Part shown: one piece after another, positions 46,498 through 57,253 of the stretch
Layout of the letters: each line of letters opens with the position of its first letter
How positions within the stretch are numbered: position 1 is the first letter of the stretch
From: Vicinamibacterales bacterium
GTDB lineage: Bacteria; Acidobacteriota; Vicinamibacteria; Vicinamibacterales; 2-12-FULL-66-21
DNA length: 64,000 nt
Assembly (NCBI GenBank): GCA_035699745.1
Contig: DASSPH010000029.1
Location: forward strand, 1 to 64,000
Direction: 5' to 3'
Position numbers and translations under genes: made by a program
Notes under the pieces: model-generated
What the model saw: the letters and a program-made list of their open reading frames with translations, nothing else
Database searches by the model: none
What the model was told of the DNA's origin: nothing

Positions 46498-47775
46498 CTA
46501 TTCGTAGTGCAGCGCCTTCACCGGGTCCAGGCGGGACGCGCGGACGGCAGGGTACAGGCCGAAGACGATGCCGATCACCACCGACACGCCGAACGCGAGC
46601 ACGATGGAGCTGGTGGTGACGATCGTCGACCAGCCGGCGAGCATGCCGATGAGCTGCGACAGGCCGACCCCGGTGAGGATGCCGGCGACGCCGCCGGTCA
46701 GCGAGATGATCGTCGTCTCGATCAGGAACTGGCGGACGACGTCGCGCTGCCGGGCGCCGATCGCCCGGCGCACGCCGATCTCGCGCGTCCGCTCCAGCAC
46801 GCTCGCCAGCATGATGTTCATGATCCCGATGCCGCCCACCAGCAGCGAGATCGAGGCGATGGCCACCATGACCATCTCGAAGATCCGCTGCGTGCGGCGC
46901 TGCTCCGCGAGCAGCTCGGCCGGGGAGACGATGGTGAAGTCGCCGGCGCCGCGATGGGCGACGTCGAGGATGCCGCGGATCATCGCCGCCGCCCCGGTGA
47001 TGTCCGAGCCCTGCGCCATCTGCAGGTAGATGCCGTCGATCTCGTCCTTCTGCGCGCTCTGGCCGTCCTCGAGCCGGAAGACCGACGAGTAGAGCGGCAC
47101 GTAAATGATGTTGTTGCGATCCTGCGCCGGAATGCCGGCGACGTCCGACTGCACCGTCAACTGCGGCCCGGCCACCCCGACGACGCGGAACCACTGATCG
47201 TTCACTTTCACGTACTTGCCGATCGGATCCTCGGCGCCGAACAGCGCCGCGGCCGCCGCTTCGCCGAGCACCGCCACCGGCGCCGCCGACGTCGTTTCCG
47301 TCTCGTCGAAGAAGCGGCCCGAGGCAACCTGCAGGCTCGCGATCGTGGCGTAGGACGGCGACACGCCGTAGACCACCGGCGAATCCCCGGCCACCGGCTT
47401 GGGCATCAGCTTCGAGGGCGTGAAGCGTTTGCGCGCGCTCGCGGCGGTGATGTTCTCGATGTTCGACTGGATGACGCGCAGGTCCTGGAACGACAGGCCG
47501 GCCGACAGCTTGCGGACCTTCTGCAGCGCCTGGTTGTCGGGCGCTTCCCGCGCCTCGACGATCAGGTTGCGGACGCCGAGCTGTTCGATGAACGCCATCA
47601 CCTCCTGCTGCGCGCCCGCGCCGATCGACAGCATCGCCACCACCGCCGCGACGCCGAAGATCATCCCCAGCATCGTCAGCAGCGAGCGCAGCTTGTGCGC
47701 GCGGAGGTTCTCCAGGCCGAGCCGCAGCTCGGGCAGCAGGTCGGTGGACCAGAGATGGGTGCGCGTCGAGATCAC
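46498..47775 (-). CDS. MacB-type ABC transporter permease (FtsX fold)
   Basis: 425 residues: an N-terminal membrane segment ('RSLLTMLGMIFGVAAVVAMLSI' region), a large periplasmic MacB core domain (about 60-290) and three C-terminal membrane segments including 'GGIGIMNIMLASVLERTREIGVRRAIGA'. It is the type found in MacAB-like export systems moving lipoproteins, peptides or small molecules. It carries no nucleotide-binding domain, and no ATPase gene is adjacent. GTG at 47775 overlaps the upstream stop (GTGA), so it is translated coupled to the adaptor gene. Confidence 0.9.
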   Translation of the reverse strand: MISTRTHLWSTDLLPELRLGLENLRAHKLRSLLTMLGMIFGVAAVVAMLSIGAGAQQEVMAFIEQLGVRNLIVEAREAPDNQALQKVRKLSAGLSFQDLRVIQSNIENITAASARKRFTPSKLMPKPVAGDSPVVYGVSPSYATIASLQVASGRFFDETETTSAAPVAVLGEAAAAALFGAEDPIGKYVKVNDQWFRVVGVAGPQLTVQSDVAGIPAQDRNNIIYVPLYSSVFRLEDGQSAQKDEIDGIYLQMAQGSDITGAAAMIRGILDVAHRGAGDFTIVSPAELLAEQRRTQRIFEMVMVAIASISLLVGGIGIMNIMLASVLERTREIGVRRAIGARQRDVVRQFLIETTIISLTGGVAGILTGVGLSQLIGMLAGWSTIVTTSSIVLAFGVSVVIGIVFGLYPAVRASRLDPVKALHYE

Positions 47776-49073
47776 TTCGCCATGCCGGTGGTGGGGCCCG
47801 AGGGCGCCCTGGCGCGGCGCGTGGCCACGTCGGGATCGACGAGGGCGATGACGTCCCCCTCGTTCAGCCCGCTGACCACGGCGCGGCTCTCGGTGCGGTT
47901 CTCGACTTTCACGTCGCGCCGTTCGAAGCGGTCGCCGCCGGCCTGCAGGAACACGAAGGTCTTGCCGTTCTTCTCGAACACCGCCTGACGCGGCACGTGC
48001 AGCGCATCCTTGATCTCGCGGCCGTCGATGACGACGCGCAGCGAGGAGCCGGCGCGCATCGCCGGATCCGGCTTGTCGAACTGCAGCGTGATGTCGAACT
48101 GGCGCACGGCGCTCGTCTCGAAGAAGTTGCCGCGCGAGGCGCTGCCGCTCAGCGGCCCGACCCTGGCGGGAAACGTCCGTCCGGGCAGCGCGTCGATCTG
48201 CACCGTCGCCGGCTGGCCCGCCTGCAGGTTGTCGCGATCGGTCTCGGTGACCTTGGCGCGCACTTCCATCATCCCGCTCTCGACGATGTCGGCGATGTTG
48301 CGGCCGGAGAAGGTCGAATCCCCCTCGCGGTATTGCGGCAGGATCATCCCGGTGAAGAAGAAGAACTGCCCGTCGCGGTTCTCCTTCACCGAGACGACCC
48401 CGTCCGACGGCGCCTTGACGATGAGGTTGTCGATGATCCCCTGGGCGCGCTCCATCGCCATCTGCGCCTTGTTGCGCCGCTCCTGCACCACCGCGAGCGC
48501 CGCCTGGCTGGTCGCCGTCCTCGCCGCCGCGTCGTCCTCGAGCTGCTTCAGGCGGCGCCGCGACTCTTCGAGCGTGAGCAGGTTCTTCTGCGCTTCGATC
48601 GCGCCGATGAACTCGTTGCCCGCGGTGTCGAGCTCGGCCCGGCGCACGTTGTAGCGCGCCGTCAGCATGTCGAGCGCCTGCTGCGAGGCGGTGACCGCCT
48701 GGTCGGCGCGCATCTTCACGATCTGCTGCTCGGCCTCGGCGAGATCGGTCTTCGCCTGCTGCAGCGCGTACTCCTGATCGGCGGCGTCGAACTCGATGAC
48801 CTCGTCGTCTTTCCTGACCGCGGTGCCGGTCTGCAGCAGCCGGACGATGCGGAGCATGCCGCCCGCCGGCGGCGCCATCAGGTTGACGGTGCGCCCGGCG
48901 CGCAGCTCGCCGGTGGCGTAGACCGTCAGCTTCAGGGGTCCGCGGACCGCCTTCGCGGTCGGCACGATCGTGCCGCGGTCGGGAAGCACCGGCGCGCCGG
49001 TGGCGAACGTCGCGGCGATCGCCGCGATGACGATCACGCCGAGCGCCCAGACCGCACGCCGCTTCCGGATCAC
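47772..49073 (-). CDS. HlyD-family membrane-fusion adaptor (third of three)
   Basis: 433 residues. It has an N-terminal anchor ('AVWALGVIVIAAIAATFATGA'), a lipoyl/barrel region split by a long coiled-coil hairpin (about 85-220, rich in A, E, Q, K) and the beta-barrel segment 'VTETDRDNLQAGQPATVQIDALPG'. Adaptors of this kind link an inner-membrane pump to an outer-membrane channel. GTG at 49073 overlaps the preceding stop (GTGA). It is coupled on both sides: to the second adaptor upstream and to the permease downstream. Confidence 0.87.
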   Translation of the reverse strand: MIRKRRAVWALGVIVIAAIAATFATGAPVLPDRGTIVPTAKAVRGPLKLTVYATGELRAGRTVNLMAPPAGGMLRIVRLLQTGTAVRKDDEVIEFDAADQEYALQQAKTDLAEAEQQIVKMRADQAVTASQQALDMLTARYNVRRAELDTAGNEFIGAIEAQKNLLTLEESRRRLKQLEDDAAARTATSQAALAVVQERRNKAQMAMERAQGIIDNLIVKAPSDGVVSVKENRDGQFFFFTGMILPQYREGDSTFSGRNIADIVESGMMEVRAKVTETDRDNLQAGQPATVQIDALPGRTFPARVGPLSGSASRGNFFETSAVRQFDITLQFDKPDPAMRAGSSLRVVIDGREIKDALHVPRQAVFEKNGKTFVFLQAGGDRFERRDVKVENRTESRAVVSGLNEGDVIALVDPDVATRRARAPSGPTTGMAK

Positions 49074-50338
49074 GACTTCCTCCGGATCAGTTCCGGCTCG
49101 GGGCGCCGCATCGCGAGCTTGTCGCCGGCCTGCACGCCGGCGCTCACCGCCGCCTGCTCGCGGCCCCGCCGCACGATCTCGATCGACTGCTCGTCGAACT
49201 TCGATCCGTTCAGCCGGTAGACGACCGGGCGTCCGTCCTTCTGGAAGATCGCTTCGGCCGGCACCAGCGTGGCGTCCGGCATCCGGTCGGCGGCGATGCG
49301 CGCCGTGGCGGTCATGCCGGGACGGATGCGCGGATCGCGCTCTTCGAGGACCAGGCCCAGATCGAAGTTCCTGACCGGCGGCCATCCCGACGAGAAGTCG
49401 ACCCGCGCCAGCACCGAGATCAGATCGACTTTCGCGGCGAACTCCTTGCCGGGGACGGCTTCGATCTTCACCGTCGCGGCCTGCCCCACCTTCAGCCGGC
49501 CGCGATCGGACTCGTCGAGGCGGGCTTCGAGATGGATCGACGACAGGTCCGGCAGCTCCAGGATGCCCGCGCCCGCCCAGGCGCGATCCCCTTCGCGGAA
49601 CTCCACGCCGCCGCCGCCGAACGGTCCGCCGGACCGCGGGTTCGGCAGGACGTTGACCGTGCCGTCGGCGGGGGCGACGAGCTTCAGCGCGGCAATCGAT
49701 CGCAGCGTCCGCTCGACGTCCGCGAGCGCCTTGTCGCGGCGGCGCCGCCGCCCGGTGAGCTCCGCTTCGATCGCCGCCGCCGTCGAGAGCGATTTGGCTT
49801 CGATCTCCTTCAACCGCTGTTCGGCGTCGGCGAGCGCCAGCTTGGCGTTCTCGTACTCGAGCCGCGACACGATCTCGCGCTTGCCGAGATCGAGCCTGGC
49901 GCGCTCGACGTCGTACTTGGCCTTGAGGATCTCGGTCTGCCGCTGCTCGGCGGTGATCTTGGTCTGCGCCAGGGACTGCTCGATTTCCCCTTCCGCCGTC
50001 TTCAGCTCGGAGCGGCGCTCCATCAGGCGCTGATTGAGCGACGTCGCGTCGAATTCGACGACCACGTCCCCCTTCTTCACCGCGGCGCCGTTCTTCACCA
50101 GCTTGACGATCTGCAGCTCGCCGCCGGCGTCGAGCGGCGCCGCGAGCTGGATCGATTTCGCCGGCCGGATGTCGCCGCGGATCTGGATGTAATCGACGAA
50201 GTCGCCGCGCGTCACCTCCCCGGTGGTGACGTTGGGGATCGCGCCGCTGCTGCGGGCGTTGATGGCAATGCCCGCGGCGGCAATCGCCACGACGGCGCCG
50301 GCCGCGGCGAGCAGCCGCCTGCTGGGTCGGATTCTCAT
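49070..50338 (-). CDS. HlyD-family membrane-fusion adaptor (second of three)
   Basis: 422 residues. The N-terminal anchor is 'LLAAAGAVVAIAAAGIAINA'. The biotinyl-lipoyl half 'GELQIVKLVKNGAAVKKGDVVVEFD' precedes a coiled coil (about 105-210) and the second half, and the C-terminal beta-barrel is 'LDESDRGRLKVGQAATVKIEAVPG'. The gene begins 4 nt after the first adaptor and ends overlapping the third. Three paralogous adaptors in a row are more than a tripartite pump needs; hetero-oligomeric adaptors are one explanation. Confidence 0.87.
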   Translation of the reverse strand: MRIRPSRRLLAAAGAVVAIAAAGIAINARSSGAIPNVTTGEVTRGDFVDYIQIRGDIRPAKSIQLAAPLDAGGELQIVKLVKNGAAVKKGDVVVEFDATSLNQRLMERRSELKTAEGEIEQSLAQTKITAEQRQTEILKAKYDVERARLDLGKREIVSRLEYENAKLALADAEQRLKEIEAKSLSTAAAIEAELTGRRRRRDKALADVERTLRSIAALKLVAPADGTVNVLPNPRSGGPFGGGGVEFREGDRAWAGAGILELPDLSSIHLEARLDESDRGRLKVGQAATVKIEAVPGKEFAAKVDLISVLARVDFSSGWPPVRNFDLGLVLEERDPRIRPGMTATARIAADRMPDATLVPAEAIFQKDGRPVVYRLNGSKFDEQSIEIVRRGREQAAVSAGVQAGDKLAMRRPEPELIRRKS

Positions 50339-50342
50339 GGGT

Positions 50343-51581
50343 TCACTTCAGGGCGGCGGCGTTGCGCGCGACCGTGACGCCCTCCTGCAGGCCGCCGGCG
50401 ACGACGGCCTCGTGCGTGTTCAACGGGCCGAGGGTGACGTCCTGGCGATCGAACCGGCCGCCGCGCTGCACGCGCACGAACGCGTGCTCCCCTTCGAGCA
50501 CCACCGCGTCGCGCGGCACCACCAGCGCGCCGCGCACGCGATCCAGCTCGACGTCGAGCGACGCCGTCAGGTCGGGCATCAGATTCGGATGTGCTTCCTT
50601 CACCAGGACCAGCACGATGAAGTTGCGCACCTTCGGCGACAGCGTCGACTGCTGGCCGATGGGCGAGATTTGATCCACGGTGCCGTGGAACGTGAGCTCG
50701 GGATAGGCGTCGAGACCGACGCTCACCGGCTGCCCGACGCGCAGGTCGTTCATGTCCGCCTGGTTGACGCGGGCGCGAACGCGCATCACCGCGGGATTGA
50801 CCACTTCGACCACCGGCTGGCCGGGACGCACTTCGTCCCCTTCCATGAACTCGACCATGTTGCCGCCGTTCTTCCAGGTCGTCTTCACCACCGCGACGCC
50901 GGGCAGCGGCGAGGCGATCAGCATGCGCTCGGCGTTCGACTCCGCCTGCTTCATGTTGGTCTCGGCGCGATTGCGGCGGATCTCGAGGATCCGGATGTCG
51001 GCGGCGGCGGCGCGCCGCTTCAACTCGAAGGTTTCCTGGAGCTGCTTCAGCCTGGCTTCCGCCTCCTCGAAGGCGAGCTTGTTCTTCTCGGCCTGGATCT
51101 TCGGCAGCATGTCGTTCTTGACCAGCTCGTTGCGGGTGCGCTCGACGGTGCTCTGCGCCTGCTTCAGCGTGCTCTCGTCGCTGGCGCGGGCCGCCACTTC
51201 CTCCGCCGTCCGCTTCTTGATCTGCTGATCCAGATCGTTCAGCTCGGCGCGCCGGTCCAAGGCGTTGCGGAGCTGATCCTGGCGATCGAACTCCACCAGC
51301 GGATCCCCCGGGTGCACCGAGGTGCCGGCCTTGATCAACCGCATGATGACCAGCGAATTGTTGTTCTGGCCCGACAGGCGGGGCGCCTGGATCGCCGTCG
51401 CCTGGACGGCTTCGACGGTGCCCGCCAGGCGGACGGTGCGCACGAAGTCCCCCTTCCGCACCACCGTCGTCGCCGGCGTGGCGCTGGCGGACTGCTCCGG
51501 ACTGCGCGCGCGAAGCGACAGGCCGGCCGCGGCAATGCCGGCGACCGCGGCGGCGGCGATCAGAATGGACGATTTCTTCAT
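50343..51581 (-). CDS. HlyD-family membrane-fusion adaptor (first of three)
   Basis: 412 residues: a short anchor ('ILIAAAAVAGIAAAGLSLRA'), a coiled-coil hairpin (about 95-195), the barrel 'VNQADMNDLRVGQPVSVGLDAYPE', and the C-terminal membrane-proximal domain 'DAVVLEGEHAFVRVQRGGRFD'. It is the first gene of the adaptor-permease operon. There is no clear ribosome site before the ATG at 51581. The 124 bp upstream to metH contain no obvious terminator or promoter. Confidence 0.87.
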   Translation of the reverse strand: MKKSSILIAAAAVAGIAAAGLSLRARSPEQSASATPATTVVRKGDFVRTVRLAGTVEAVQATAIQAPRLSGQNNNSLVIMRLIKAGTSVHPGDPLVEFDRQDQLRNALDRRAELNDLDQQIKKRTAEEVAARASDESTLKQAQSTVERTRNELVKNDMLPKIQAEKNKLAFEEAEARLKQLQETFELKRRAAAADIRILEIRRNRAETNMKQAESNAERMLIASPLPGVAVVKTTWKNGGNMVEFMEGDEVRPGQPVVEVVNPAVMRVRARVNQADMNDLRVGQPVSVGLDAYPELTFHGTVDQISPIGQQSTLSPKVRNFIVLVLVKEAHPNLMPDLTASLDVELDRVRGALVVPRDAVVLEGEHAFVRVQRGGRFDRQDVTLGPLNTHEAVVAGGLQEGVTVARNAAALK

Positions 51582-51705: not shown

Positions 51706-55464
<3,759 letters not shown>

Positions 55465-55477
55465 CGTGGGAGGTCCT

Positions 55478-56449
55478 CTAGGAACTTGCGGCGGCTTTCA
55501 CGCCGCTCGCGATCAGCACGGTAAACGGGTCGCGCGCACGGCGCGCACCGACGGTAATCTTCACGCCCGAGAGTCCGGCGCGTTCCAGCATCGCGCGCAG
55601 CTCGTCGTCTTCGAAGCCGAGCCACTTGTCGCCGAGGCGCTCGCGGACCCAGGCTTCCTCGTGGCGCCGCAGCTCCAGCAGCAGCACGCGCCCGCCGGAA
55701 CGCAGGATGCGCACCGCCTCGCGCAGCGCCGCGTCCGGATCCTCGGCGTGGTGCAGCGCCTGCGAGAGCAGGGCGACGTCGACGCTCTCGTCTTCCAGCG
55801 GCAGGTTCTCGATCTCGCCGCGCGTCCACTCGATCTCGCCGCGCTCGCCGGGACTGCGGCGGGCCAGCTTGACCGCCGCCAGCGACTTCGCGCGCTCGAG
55901 CACGGCCTCGGAACGATCGACGGCAATGACGCGGCGCGCGAAGCGGCTCGCCTCGATCGTCAGATAGCCTTCGCCGCAGCCGAGATCCGCCACGTCCAGC
56001 TCGGGCAGCAGATGCCCGAGCGCACGGGCCCATGCCGCCCAGCTCCGGCCGGGAACGATCTGCCGGTGCTCGTCGGCCGCACCGTGCTCGTCGAAGTTCT
56101 CCCTGCGCACGCGCCGGACTTCTTCGAGCCGCGCCGCGTCCGCGCGCCCTTCCGGGGATCCCGCGACGGCGTCGAAATGCGCCCGGAGCACCGGCCAGAT
56201 CGGGCCGAAGCCGTTCGCGCCGGACTGCAGCGCCGGCGCCAGGCTGAAAAACGTGAAGCCGGCCTCCTTCCGCTCCTCCACGAGCCCGGCTTCCTTCAGC
56301 AGACCCAGGTGCCTCGACACGCCGGACTGCGCGATGCCGAGGATGGCGGTCAACTCCGACACGTTCAGCCGCTCGGCTTCCAGCAGCCGCAGGATCCTCA
56401 GCCTCGCGTCATCACCCAGCAGGCGGAAGAGTGCCGCCGACGAGATCAT
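55478..56449 (-). CDS. ArsR-family regulator fused to a SAM-dependent methyltransferase domain
   Basis: 323 residues. The N-terminal winged helix (1-95) has '[20 protein letters not shown]' and the recognition region '[29 protein letters not shown]'. It contains no cysteine pair of the kind that binds arsenite or heavy metals. The C-terminal class I methyltransferase domain has motif I '[16 protein letters not shown]' and '[15 protein letters not shown]', plus '[22 protein letters not shown]'. The layout fits SahR-like regulators, which sense S-adenosylhomocysteine through such a domain in other phyla. It lies 13 nt upstream of metH in one operon. No ribosome site precedes the ATG at 56449. 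Confidence 0.88.
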
Positions 56450-56450
56450 T

Positions 56451-56488
56451 GCATCTATAAATCTATATGCGTTGATGCTTATTGTCCA
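56451..56488 (-). promoter_or_regulatory. Promoter with overlapping operator dyad for the ArsR-metH operon
   Basis: On the minus strand TGGACA (56483-56488) and TAGATT (56460-56465) are spaced by 17 nt. A 20-bp imperfect dyad (56451-56470) of the form GCAT-N12-ATGC, symmetric at 14 of 20 bases, covers the -10 element. It also reads as a direct repeat, TATAGAT-T-TATAGAT. A regulator bound here would block polymerase. Confidence 0.5.
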
Positions 56489-56503: not shown

Positions 56504-57253
56504 ATGAAATTCCAGACACTTCCGGCGACGCTGGTCCTGGCCGGCTTCTGTGCAGGGCCGGCCGCGGCCCAGCTGCCCCCGACACCGCCCGGCGGGTCCC
56601 CCCCGTCCGTCCAGCAGCAGAACGAGGAGATCATCAAGGAGCTGCGGACCATCCGCGCCCTCCTCGAGAGCGTCATCAGGCAGACGCCGCCGCCGCGTCC
56701 GGCCACCGGAAAGGTCAGCAACCTCCAGGGCTACGCGCTCGGCAGGCCGGACGCCCCGTTGACGATGGTCGAGTTCACGGATCTGCAGTGCCCCTACTGC
56801 CGCCAGTTCGCGCTGACGGCGTTCGACGAGATCAGGAAGAACTGGATCGACACCGGCAAGCTGCGCTATATCAGCCGGGACTTCCCGATCGACGTGCTGC
56901 ATCCGCACGCGATGGCCGCCGCCCGCTCGGCGCGGTGCGCCGGCGAGCAGGGGAAGTTCTGGGAGATGCGCCTCACGCTCGTGCGCAACGCCAACGTGCT
57001 CTCCCCCGACTTCATGACGAAGACGGCGGGCGATCTGAAGCTCGACCCGAAAGCGTTCGCCGCGTGCGCCGCCTCGTCGAAGCACGACGCCGCGATCCAG
57101 GCGGAGCTGCAGGAAGGAGCGAAGCTGGGGATCGACGGCACGCCGACGTTCGTGATCGGCCGCACGACGCCCGGCGGCATCGACGGGCCGATGATCGTCG
57201 GCGCGCTGCCGTACGCACAATTCGACGCGAAGCTGAAGGAGCTGCTGAAGTAG
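56504..57253 (+). CDS. Exported DsbA-family thioredoxin-fold protein
   Basis: 249 residues with a signal peptide (MKFQTLPATLVLAGFCAGPAAA). A short coiled coil ('NEEIIKELRTIRALLESVI') and a proline-rich linker precede the thioredoxin-4 domain, with active-site CPYC (about residues 97-100, in DLQCPYCRQF) and cis-proline GTPTF. It should catalyse thiol-disulfide exchange in the periplasm. The CPYC dipeptide is less oxidising than the CPHC of E. coli DsbA. NTF2-like and M13 genes follow. Confidence 0.88.
   Translation: MKFQTLPATLVLAGFCAGPAAAQLPPTPPGGSPPSVQQQNEEIIKELRTIRALLESVIRQTPPPRPATGKVSNLQGYALGRPDAPLTMVEFTDLQCPYCRQFALTAFDEIRKNWIDTGKLRYISRDFPIDVLHPHAMAAARSARCAGEQGKFWEMRLTLVRNANVLSPDFMTKTAGDLKLDPKAFAACAASSKHDAAIQAELQEGAKLGIDGTPTFVIGRTTPGGIDGPMIVGALPYAQFDAKLKELLK

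Follow-up and report, generated by a model that had tools for sequence, protein, structure and literature searches.

What does a DNA-binding protein with a methyltransferase fold do in front of a methionine synthase gene, and which molecule would it sense there? The question is raised by the window, the whole stretch of 64,000 nucleotides of Vicinamibacterales DNA analysed here, in which a regulator gene leads metH on the reverse strand (table 1). The reading favoured from the sequence, with some confidence short of conviction, is that the protein would act as a ligand-relieved autorepressor of the regulator–metH operon, with S-adenosylhomocysteine (SAH) as its most likely inducer.

Table 1. 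Features of the regulator–metH locus, in window coordinates.
Feature	Position	Strand	Remark
metH, cobalamin-dependent methionine synthase	51706..55464	-	downstream gene of the operon, 13 nt after the regulator; above the NCBIfam cut-off
ArsR-type winged helix and class I methyltransferase-fold regulator (SamR/SahR-like, PGRSW clade)	55478..56449	-	323 aa; ATG at 56449, stop at 55478
GCAT-N12-ATGC dyad of the original prediction	56451..56470		chance, unconserved; intact in 1/82 loci
Putative 24-bp operator ATCAACGCATATAGATTTATAGAT, ATC-N18-GAT	56453..56476	-	conserved in relatives' loci
-10 box TAGATT, within the operator	56460..56465	-	TAGATT at this position in 67/82 loci
-35 box TGGACA, with a 17-nt spacer to the -10 box	56483..56488	-	TTG there in 45/82 loci, the window not among these
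DsbA/thioredoxin-fold gene, divergent upstream of the regulator	56504..57253	+	neighbour, probably outside the switch

The regulator and its pairing with metH

The protein joins an ArsR winged helix (Pfam HTH_5, residues 13-58, 5.9e-13) to a class I methyltransferase fold (Methyltransf_11, residues 155-256, 2.1e-23), which is the architecture of SahR. Its only cysteine, C158, lies inside the SAM-binding motif DLGCGEG. A single cysteine is also found in 22/30 orthologues, and none of the 30 has one at the columns of residues 24-52, the DNA-binding helix region in which metal-ligand cysteines were sought. The methyltransferase motif residues D155, G159, G161 and D178 are invariant in 25/25 sequences. 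The gene had been described as a fusion of a winged helix without a Cys pair and a class I methyltransferase fold, ending 13 nt before metH; this description is correct in each part, the reading frame stopping at 55478 and metH starting at 55464.

An AlphaFold2 model has a mean pLDDT of 87 and is confident except at residues 118-135. This stretch overlaps part of the most conserved motif of the clade, so that the binding pocket cannot be judged from the model. Foldseek searches with it return general class I methyltransferases, the best being Rv2258c with SAH (TM-score 0.43/0.40), and are uninformative on the ligand. The motif itself occupies residues 130-140, starts with Q and is nearly invariant in the PGRSW clade described below. 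It lies partly within the low-confidence stretch, stands where SahR has the segment FFxxxAxxWD, and may become ordered around a ligand.

A search of relatives for the same gene pair, suggested with the original prediction, recovers it widely. Regulator orthologues (E <= 1e-60) occur in 31/40 genomes searched, the window's own included; the 31st is a fragment in G002, outside the 30 loci that were fetched. metH lies directly downstream in 30/30 of these loci and in 77 of 80 named loci, the best 80 of 136 candidates in one scan. Of the remaining three, L183 ends 105 nt after the regulator gene, and L129 and L141 have no metH match. The regulator–metH pair is conserved across this Vicinamibacterales-type acidobacterial order. 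The window's genome has no other gene above the family cut-off for metH; a partial MetH-like match lies on contig C70.

The surroundings offer several minor observations. A seven-base tandem repeat (GGGTCGA/GGCCGAG, about five copies, 55414-55453) lies within the first codons of metH, and the metH match begins only at residue 21 in 15/30 relatives. Three consecutive frames for HlyD/RND-type membrane fusion proteins, one assigned by NCBIfam and the other two by eye, follow metH on the same strand (47772-51581). Seven loci (L118, L123, L155, L161, L164, L183 and L187) bear the titles of Cyanobacteria, Acidimicrobiia or Bifidobacterium breve together with a regulator and operator of acidobacterial type; they are probably mislabelled assemblies, and metH is not visible in L183.

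Promoter and operator

The predicted promoter, TGGACA and TAGATT with 17 nt between them, is present. The dyad GCAT-N12-ATGC had been named as the operator over it, a role that it does not keep. Markov-1 simulations expect 1.24 such dyads per 64 kb, and this is the only copy in the window. Both arms are intact in one of 82 loci, which is the window itself, and the dyad ends 1 nt before the ATG, not 2 nt as had been stated. The conserved element is offset from it by 6 bp. A consensus search of 30 upstream regions yields the 24-bp form ATC-nAtnn-ATGTAGATT-nAtn-GAT in 30/30, adjoining the start codon in most; in the window it ends 3 nt before that codon. A dyad over the regulator's own promoter is there, with the -10 box covered, and a palindrome is conserved among relatives, but in another register than the one proposed.

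The operator survey parsed 106 of 110 loci (all but L013, L018, L123 and L150), of which 85 are distinct. Predicted operators score at least 20 in 82/85, a count biased towards the operator, since 30 of the surveyed loci served as the training set of the matrix and the best match was taken. The other three, L139, L154 and L156, score below 20 yet retain the terminal ATC and GAT. Both outer triplets are exact in 73/82 loci, and in 66/82 an ATC-N10-GAT box, itself poorly palindromic, lies inside the element. An independent matrix, built from 75 loci outside the window's family, scores 44.3 at 56453-56476. The next non-overlapping place in the window reaches 3.0, and the best on one strand of 30 simulated 64-kb windows is 5.6.

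The element directly abuts the first in-frame start codon (gap 0) in 62/85 loci, and the gap is at most 4 nt in 81/85. Transcription is expected to start about 7 nt after a -10 box, which places the start point here at or next to the start codon, and the regulator–metH mRNA is probably leaderless, or nearly so. The fusion of operator and start codon would form a compact control element. Leaderless genes are predicted at 13.3% on average in three Acidobacteria genomes, according to excerpts of PMC3160421.

ATCAACGCATATAGATTTATAGAT reads as two overlapping ATC-N10-GAT boxes, the first intact and the second degenerate. The doubled form is complete in sister families whose regulators are divergent from ahcY: ATC-N5-ATC-N2-GAT-N5-GAT, two ATC-N10-GAT boxes overlapping by 8 bp, is found in 10/10 of these intergenic regions, the inner ATC being read by eye. 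In the window operator the inner ATC has become ATA (ATG in most relatives), at the -10 box. Two dimers might sit on such a doubled box.

A second regulator on ahcY, the tree and further sites

The window's genome encodes one close paralogue, an ArsR-methyltransferase (G000:C20:53990-54931) directly before ahcY, with the operator ATCCGGATGAACGGAT; one ahcY copy was found. The two proteins are 35-39% identical and share domain order and operon logic, a regulator followed by one SAM-cycle enzyme. They differ in the recognition helix, PQSTVSRHLK in the paralogue, and in the segment that reads FFxSxAGxWD in the paralogue and VPGRSWAAW in the window protein. The paralogue occurs in 28/40 genomes (loci L075-L102, the window's own included). 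ahcY follows it in 27/28, and the remaining locus ends at a contig end. ATCCGG-N7-GAT, a form of ATC-N10-GAT, precedes its start in 27/27 loci with an upstream region, and in 22 of these the element ends in CGGAT. A comparison by eye places 21/21 exact ATCCGGATNNACGGAT matches among the 40 genomes at the paralogue–ahcY locus. In the window's genome the metH-type operator was not found at ahcY, nor the ahcY-type at metH. The two operons adjoin in some relatives, in tandem in G014, G027 and G037 and divergently within 3 kb in L130, L151, L175, L182, L183 and L185.

Most sampled genomes of one acidobacterial order thus carry two such regulators, split by enzyme and with distinct operators and recognition helices. 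Such pairs lend themselves to studying how a single sensor fold acquires another DNA target and perhaps another ligand. The kind of sensor is known. Its division into two private switches, enzyme by enzyme, looks new: among the open-licence papers listed, judged by title and abstract, none was on an acidobacterial or paralogous SahR. A Leptospira interrogans record (L111, 2947-6852) has in one row an ArsR-methyltransferase gene, ahcY, a 4Fe4S protein gene and metH, with the element ATATCAAGATATCTTGATAT upstream. This row is the undivided form of the arrangement that is split in two in the window's order.

A maximum-likelihood tree of 76 proteins (midpoint root) separates the two regulators. 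It excludes the 80 named loci, L081 with its in-frame stop and three repeats (L075, L103 and L104); SahR is represented by seven alphaproteobacterial proteins and one from Leptospira, so that delta and gamma SahR and Xanthomonadales SamR lie outside its sample. The PGRSW clade (support 100/93), called after its signature sequence, holds the 30 metH-linked proteins, ten from other acidobacterial families and the f35 protein, which also precedes metH and has a cut N-terminus. The window protein belongs to this clade and not with SahR. The 27 ahcY-linked paralogues group with the seven alphaproteobacterial SahR proteins at 96/71, a grouping subject to a long-branch warning; the Leptospira protein forms a long isolated branch. 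From this separate placement the metH and ahcY switches look like old lineages, not a recent copy.

Across the phylum, 51 of 197 genomes (at least 90% complete) have a match at 1e-35. Matches at E <= 1e-140 are found in 19/197, all of the window's order, in which G031 lacks one. Outside the order, 14 genomes match at 1e-74 to 1e-86 and 18 at 1e-37 to 1e-57. Eleven loci of the intermediate group of 14 were fetched. In one (L299) the regulator precedes metH. The other ten encode members of the same clade from other acidobacterial families, and in 10/10 the regulator and ahcY diverge from an intergenic region that holds a 24-bp ATC-N18-GAT element. Within the window's order, G016 has ahcY divergent across the metH operator. 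A plasmid search with the window protein gave no match at 1e-15. Relaxing the threshold to 1e-4 brought up 36 records; the seven with a query coverage of 80% or more all come from the SahR set already found with the paralogue.

The symmetric pattern with up to two mismatches matches 73 places in 40 genomes, against ten for a reversed-pattern control. After removal of 31 regulator sites and five second-register overlaps, 37 off-locus sites remain, all of which were read. Nine of them precede methionine, threonine or sulfur genes, namely hom (five), asd, metY, thrC and cysD, at 92-332 nt before the first matched residue; target families were assigned by NCBIfam. One of the hom targets is followed by lysC (by eye) and metB (a fragment). 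All four single-mismatch off-locus sites in the 40 genomes are among the nine. By eye, the other 28 lie within open frames or show no such gene. L193 (1566-1589) and L194 (1603-1626), from the same genus, have a similar promoter context and operator-like site, yet metY comes next in L193 and asd in L194.

In the window's genome no second good operator was found, the next sites carrying 2-3 mismatches. The only one of these at two mismatches, G000:C55:148587, was considered as a further target and rejected, as it lies in a repeat-like palindrome between converging open frames. No operator turned up at metK, at the hom riboswitch or at the partial MetH-like match. With a single operator found, the 'SAM-cycle regulon' of this genome comes down to metH, and a wider one was discarded.

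The hom gene (homoserine dehydrogenase) of the window's genome has instead a SAM-I riboswitch (L268, G000:C106:12125-12241, - strand), without the 24-bp operator. Together with the metH switch and the separate switch on ahcY, this suggests a separate sensor for each of three arms of the methionine/SAM pathway. Elsewhere the two kinds of control meet. An operator-like site lies 46-88 nt upstream of 5/19 SAM-I riboswitch leaders (18 of the 19 over the cut-off), and none was found within 150 nt upstream of the other 14, the window genome's included. The riboswitch follows such a site in L195, L199 and L201, and four of the nine gene-linked sites accompany one (G013, G016 thrC, G032 and G036). Relatives with an operator directly before a SAM-I riboswitch would have one pathway sensed by a protein and by an RNA within the same leader.

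Signal, resemblances and alternatives

An operator covering the -10 box and extending to the start codon points to repression and autoregulation. The predicted cycle runs as follows. (i) The ArsR winged helix would bind the 24-bp operator, which spans the region from the -10 box to the start codon. (ii) With the -10 box covered, RNA polymerase would be unable to initiate. (iii) The C-terminal methyltransferase fold, which keeps the SAM/SAH-binding motifs, would serve as the sensor. (iv) SAH would accumulate when methyl groups are consumed, and its binding would most likely free the repressor from the operator. (v) Release would allow MetH to convert homocysteine back to methionine. With a leaderless mRNA, operator, promoter and start codon would form one compact module.

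SAH is mildly favoured as the ligand. That regulators of the same clade diverge from ahcY, both in sister families and in G016, speaks for a SAM-cycle signal and for SAH in particular. SahR has the same architecture, responds to SAH and binds a 20-bp palindrome, in the excerpted account of PMC4239095. In Ensifer aridi, sahR expression is highest in a sahR deletion mutant, which is read as autoregulation in the accessible part of PMC8877191.

By context and operator length, the window system most resembles SamR, to which it is likened by description. SamR appears in the consulted portion of PMC4239095 as a predicted regulator of Xanthomonadales with a 24-bp palindrome, a metH neighbourhood and a proposed response to SAM. 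The window protein, too, is a distant SahR homologue (about 30% identity) encoded next to metH, and its 24-bp palindrome contains ATC-10 nt-GAT, as judged against the published description and not against SamR motif letters. Hom-type targets, part of the SamR regulon (hom, metB, metE, metF, metK, metX2), appear in its relatives, whereas the window's own hom and metK loci have no site. The system differs from SamR in belonging to Acidobacteriota, in the regulator leading metH in one operon, in an operator that abuts the start codon, and in a separate SahR-like paralogue serving ahcY.

With SahR of alpha-, delta- and gamma-Proteobacteria (PMC4239095, in part) it shares the fused ArsR helix and methyltransferase fold, an operator at its own gene and metH as target. 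ATC-N10-GAT inside the operator is likewise reported there for gamma-type SahR, and is seen in the Leptospira record. However, identity to four alphaproteobacterial SahR proteins is 28-32%, the operator is 24 bp long and not 20 bp, and alphaproteobacterial operators (ACATAAAGATATCTTTATGT-like; ATATCAAGATATCTTGATAT in Leptospira) have different letters from that of the window. The SahR core regulon (ahcY, metH, metF, metK and its own gene) is represented in the window's genome by the operator at the regulator's own gene and metH, the single target; the metK locus is without one, and ahcY is under the other regulator. Within the open-licence literature, as seen in excerpt, SahR/SamR control is described for Proteobacteria. 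The original prediction had spoken of an autoregulated SAM-cycle switch of SahR type in an acidobacterial-like genome. Host, architecture, conserved metH pair and operator on the regulator's own promoter agree with this; the named dyad does not, and the protein is not simply SahR, since it is the ahcY-linked paralogue, with its ATC-N10-GAT operator, that joins alphaproteobacterial SahR.

The likeness to SamR suggests a different signal. A SamR-like repressor with SAM as corepressor would shut metH, and in relatives hom, metB, metY and thrC, when SAM is plentiful. This is a serious possibility, though not the probable one. The 24-bp palindrome and the adjacency of metH fit the description of SamR, for which SAM is proposed in PMC4239095 as excerpted. 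All four single-mismatch sites and nine of the 37 off-locus sites precede hom, asd, metY, thrC or cysD, and five of 19 riboswitch leaders have an operator-like site upstream; with such targets and such company in relatives, SAM fits as a signal at least as well. Against it, same-clade proteins divergent from ahcY (10/10, and G016) point to SAH, the hom riboswitch locus and metK of the window's genome lack the operator, and 14 of the 19 leaders do so too. A division of ligands between the paralogues is a more speculative proposal, and rather doubtful. SAH would be read on ahcY and SAM on metH (in relatives also on hom and its neighbours). Each regulator would use an operator private to it, and with the SAM-I riboswitch the cell would measure the SAM:SAH ratio, or methylation potential.

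Autorepression of regulator and metH, the preferred reading, is compatible with a further role on the divergent dsbA-like gene, which had also been proposed. The two start codons are 54 bp apart, and any dsbA promoter in this shared intergenic region would contain or adjoin the operator. Such control is nevertheless unlikely. The dsbA-like gene is upstream in only 2/30 relatives' loci (1.5-kb flanks, some ending at contig ends) and in 3/80 named loci, one of which is the window's genome again, and in nearly all loci the operator adjoins the start codon of the regulator itself.

An active methyltransferase in the C-terminal domain, acting on arsenite or a small metabolite in an enzyme-regulator like ArsRM, is very improbable. 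ArsRM fusions exist, the SAM motifs are intact, and there is weak similarity to arsenite methyltransferase models (5.2e-12). That score is far below the family cut-off, however; arsenite methyltransferases carry a set of cysteines where the window protein has one, no arsenic genes were seen among the neighbours examined, and the regulator is paired with metH in 30/30 loci. An ordinary metal-sensing ArsR protein that neighbours metH by chance can be dismissed almost entirely: the NCBIfam HTH_metalloreg subfamily model does pass its cut-off (73.4 over 55), but it also takes the ahcY-linked and sister proteins, and the helix columns free of cysteine in 30/30 orthologues, the fused SAM-binding domain and the metH pairing all speak for a sensor of another kind.
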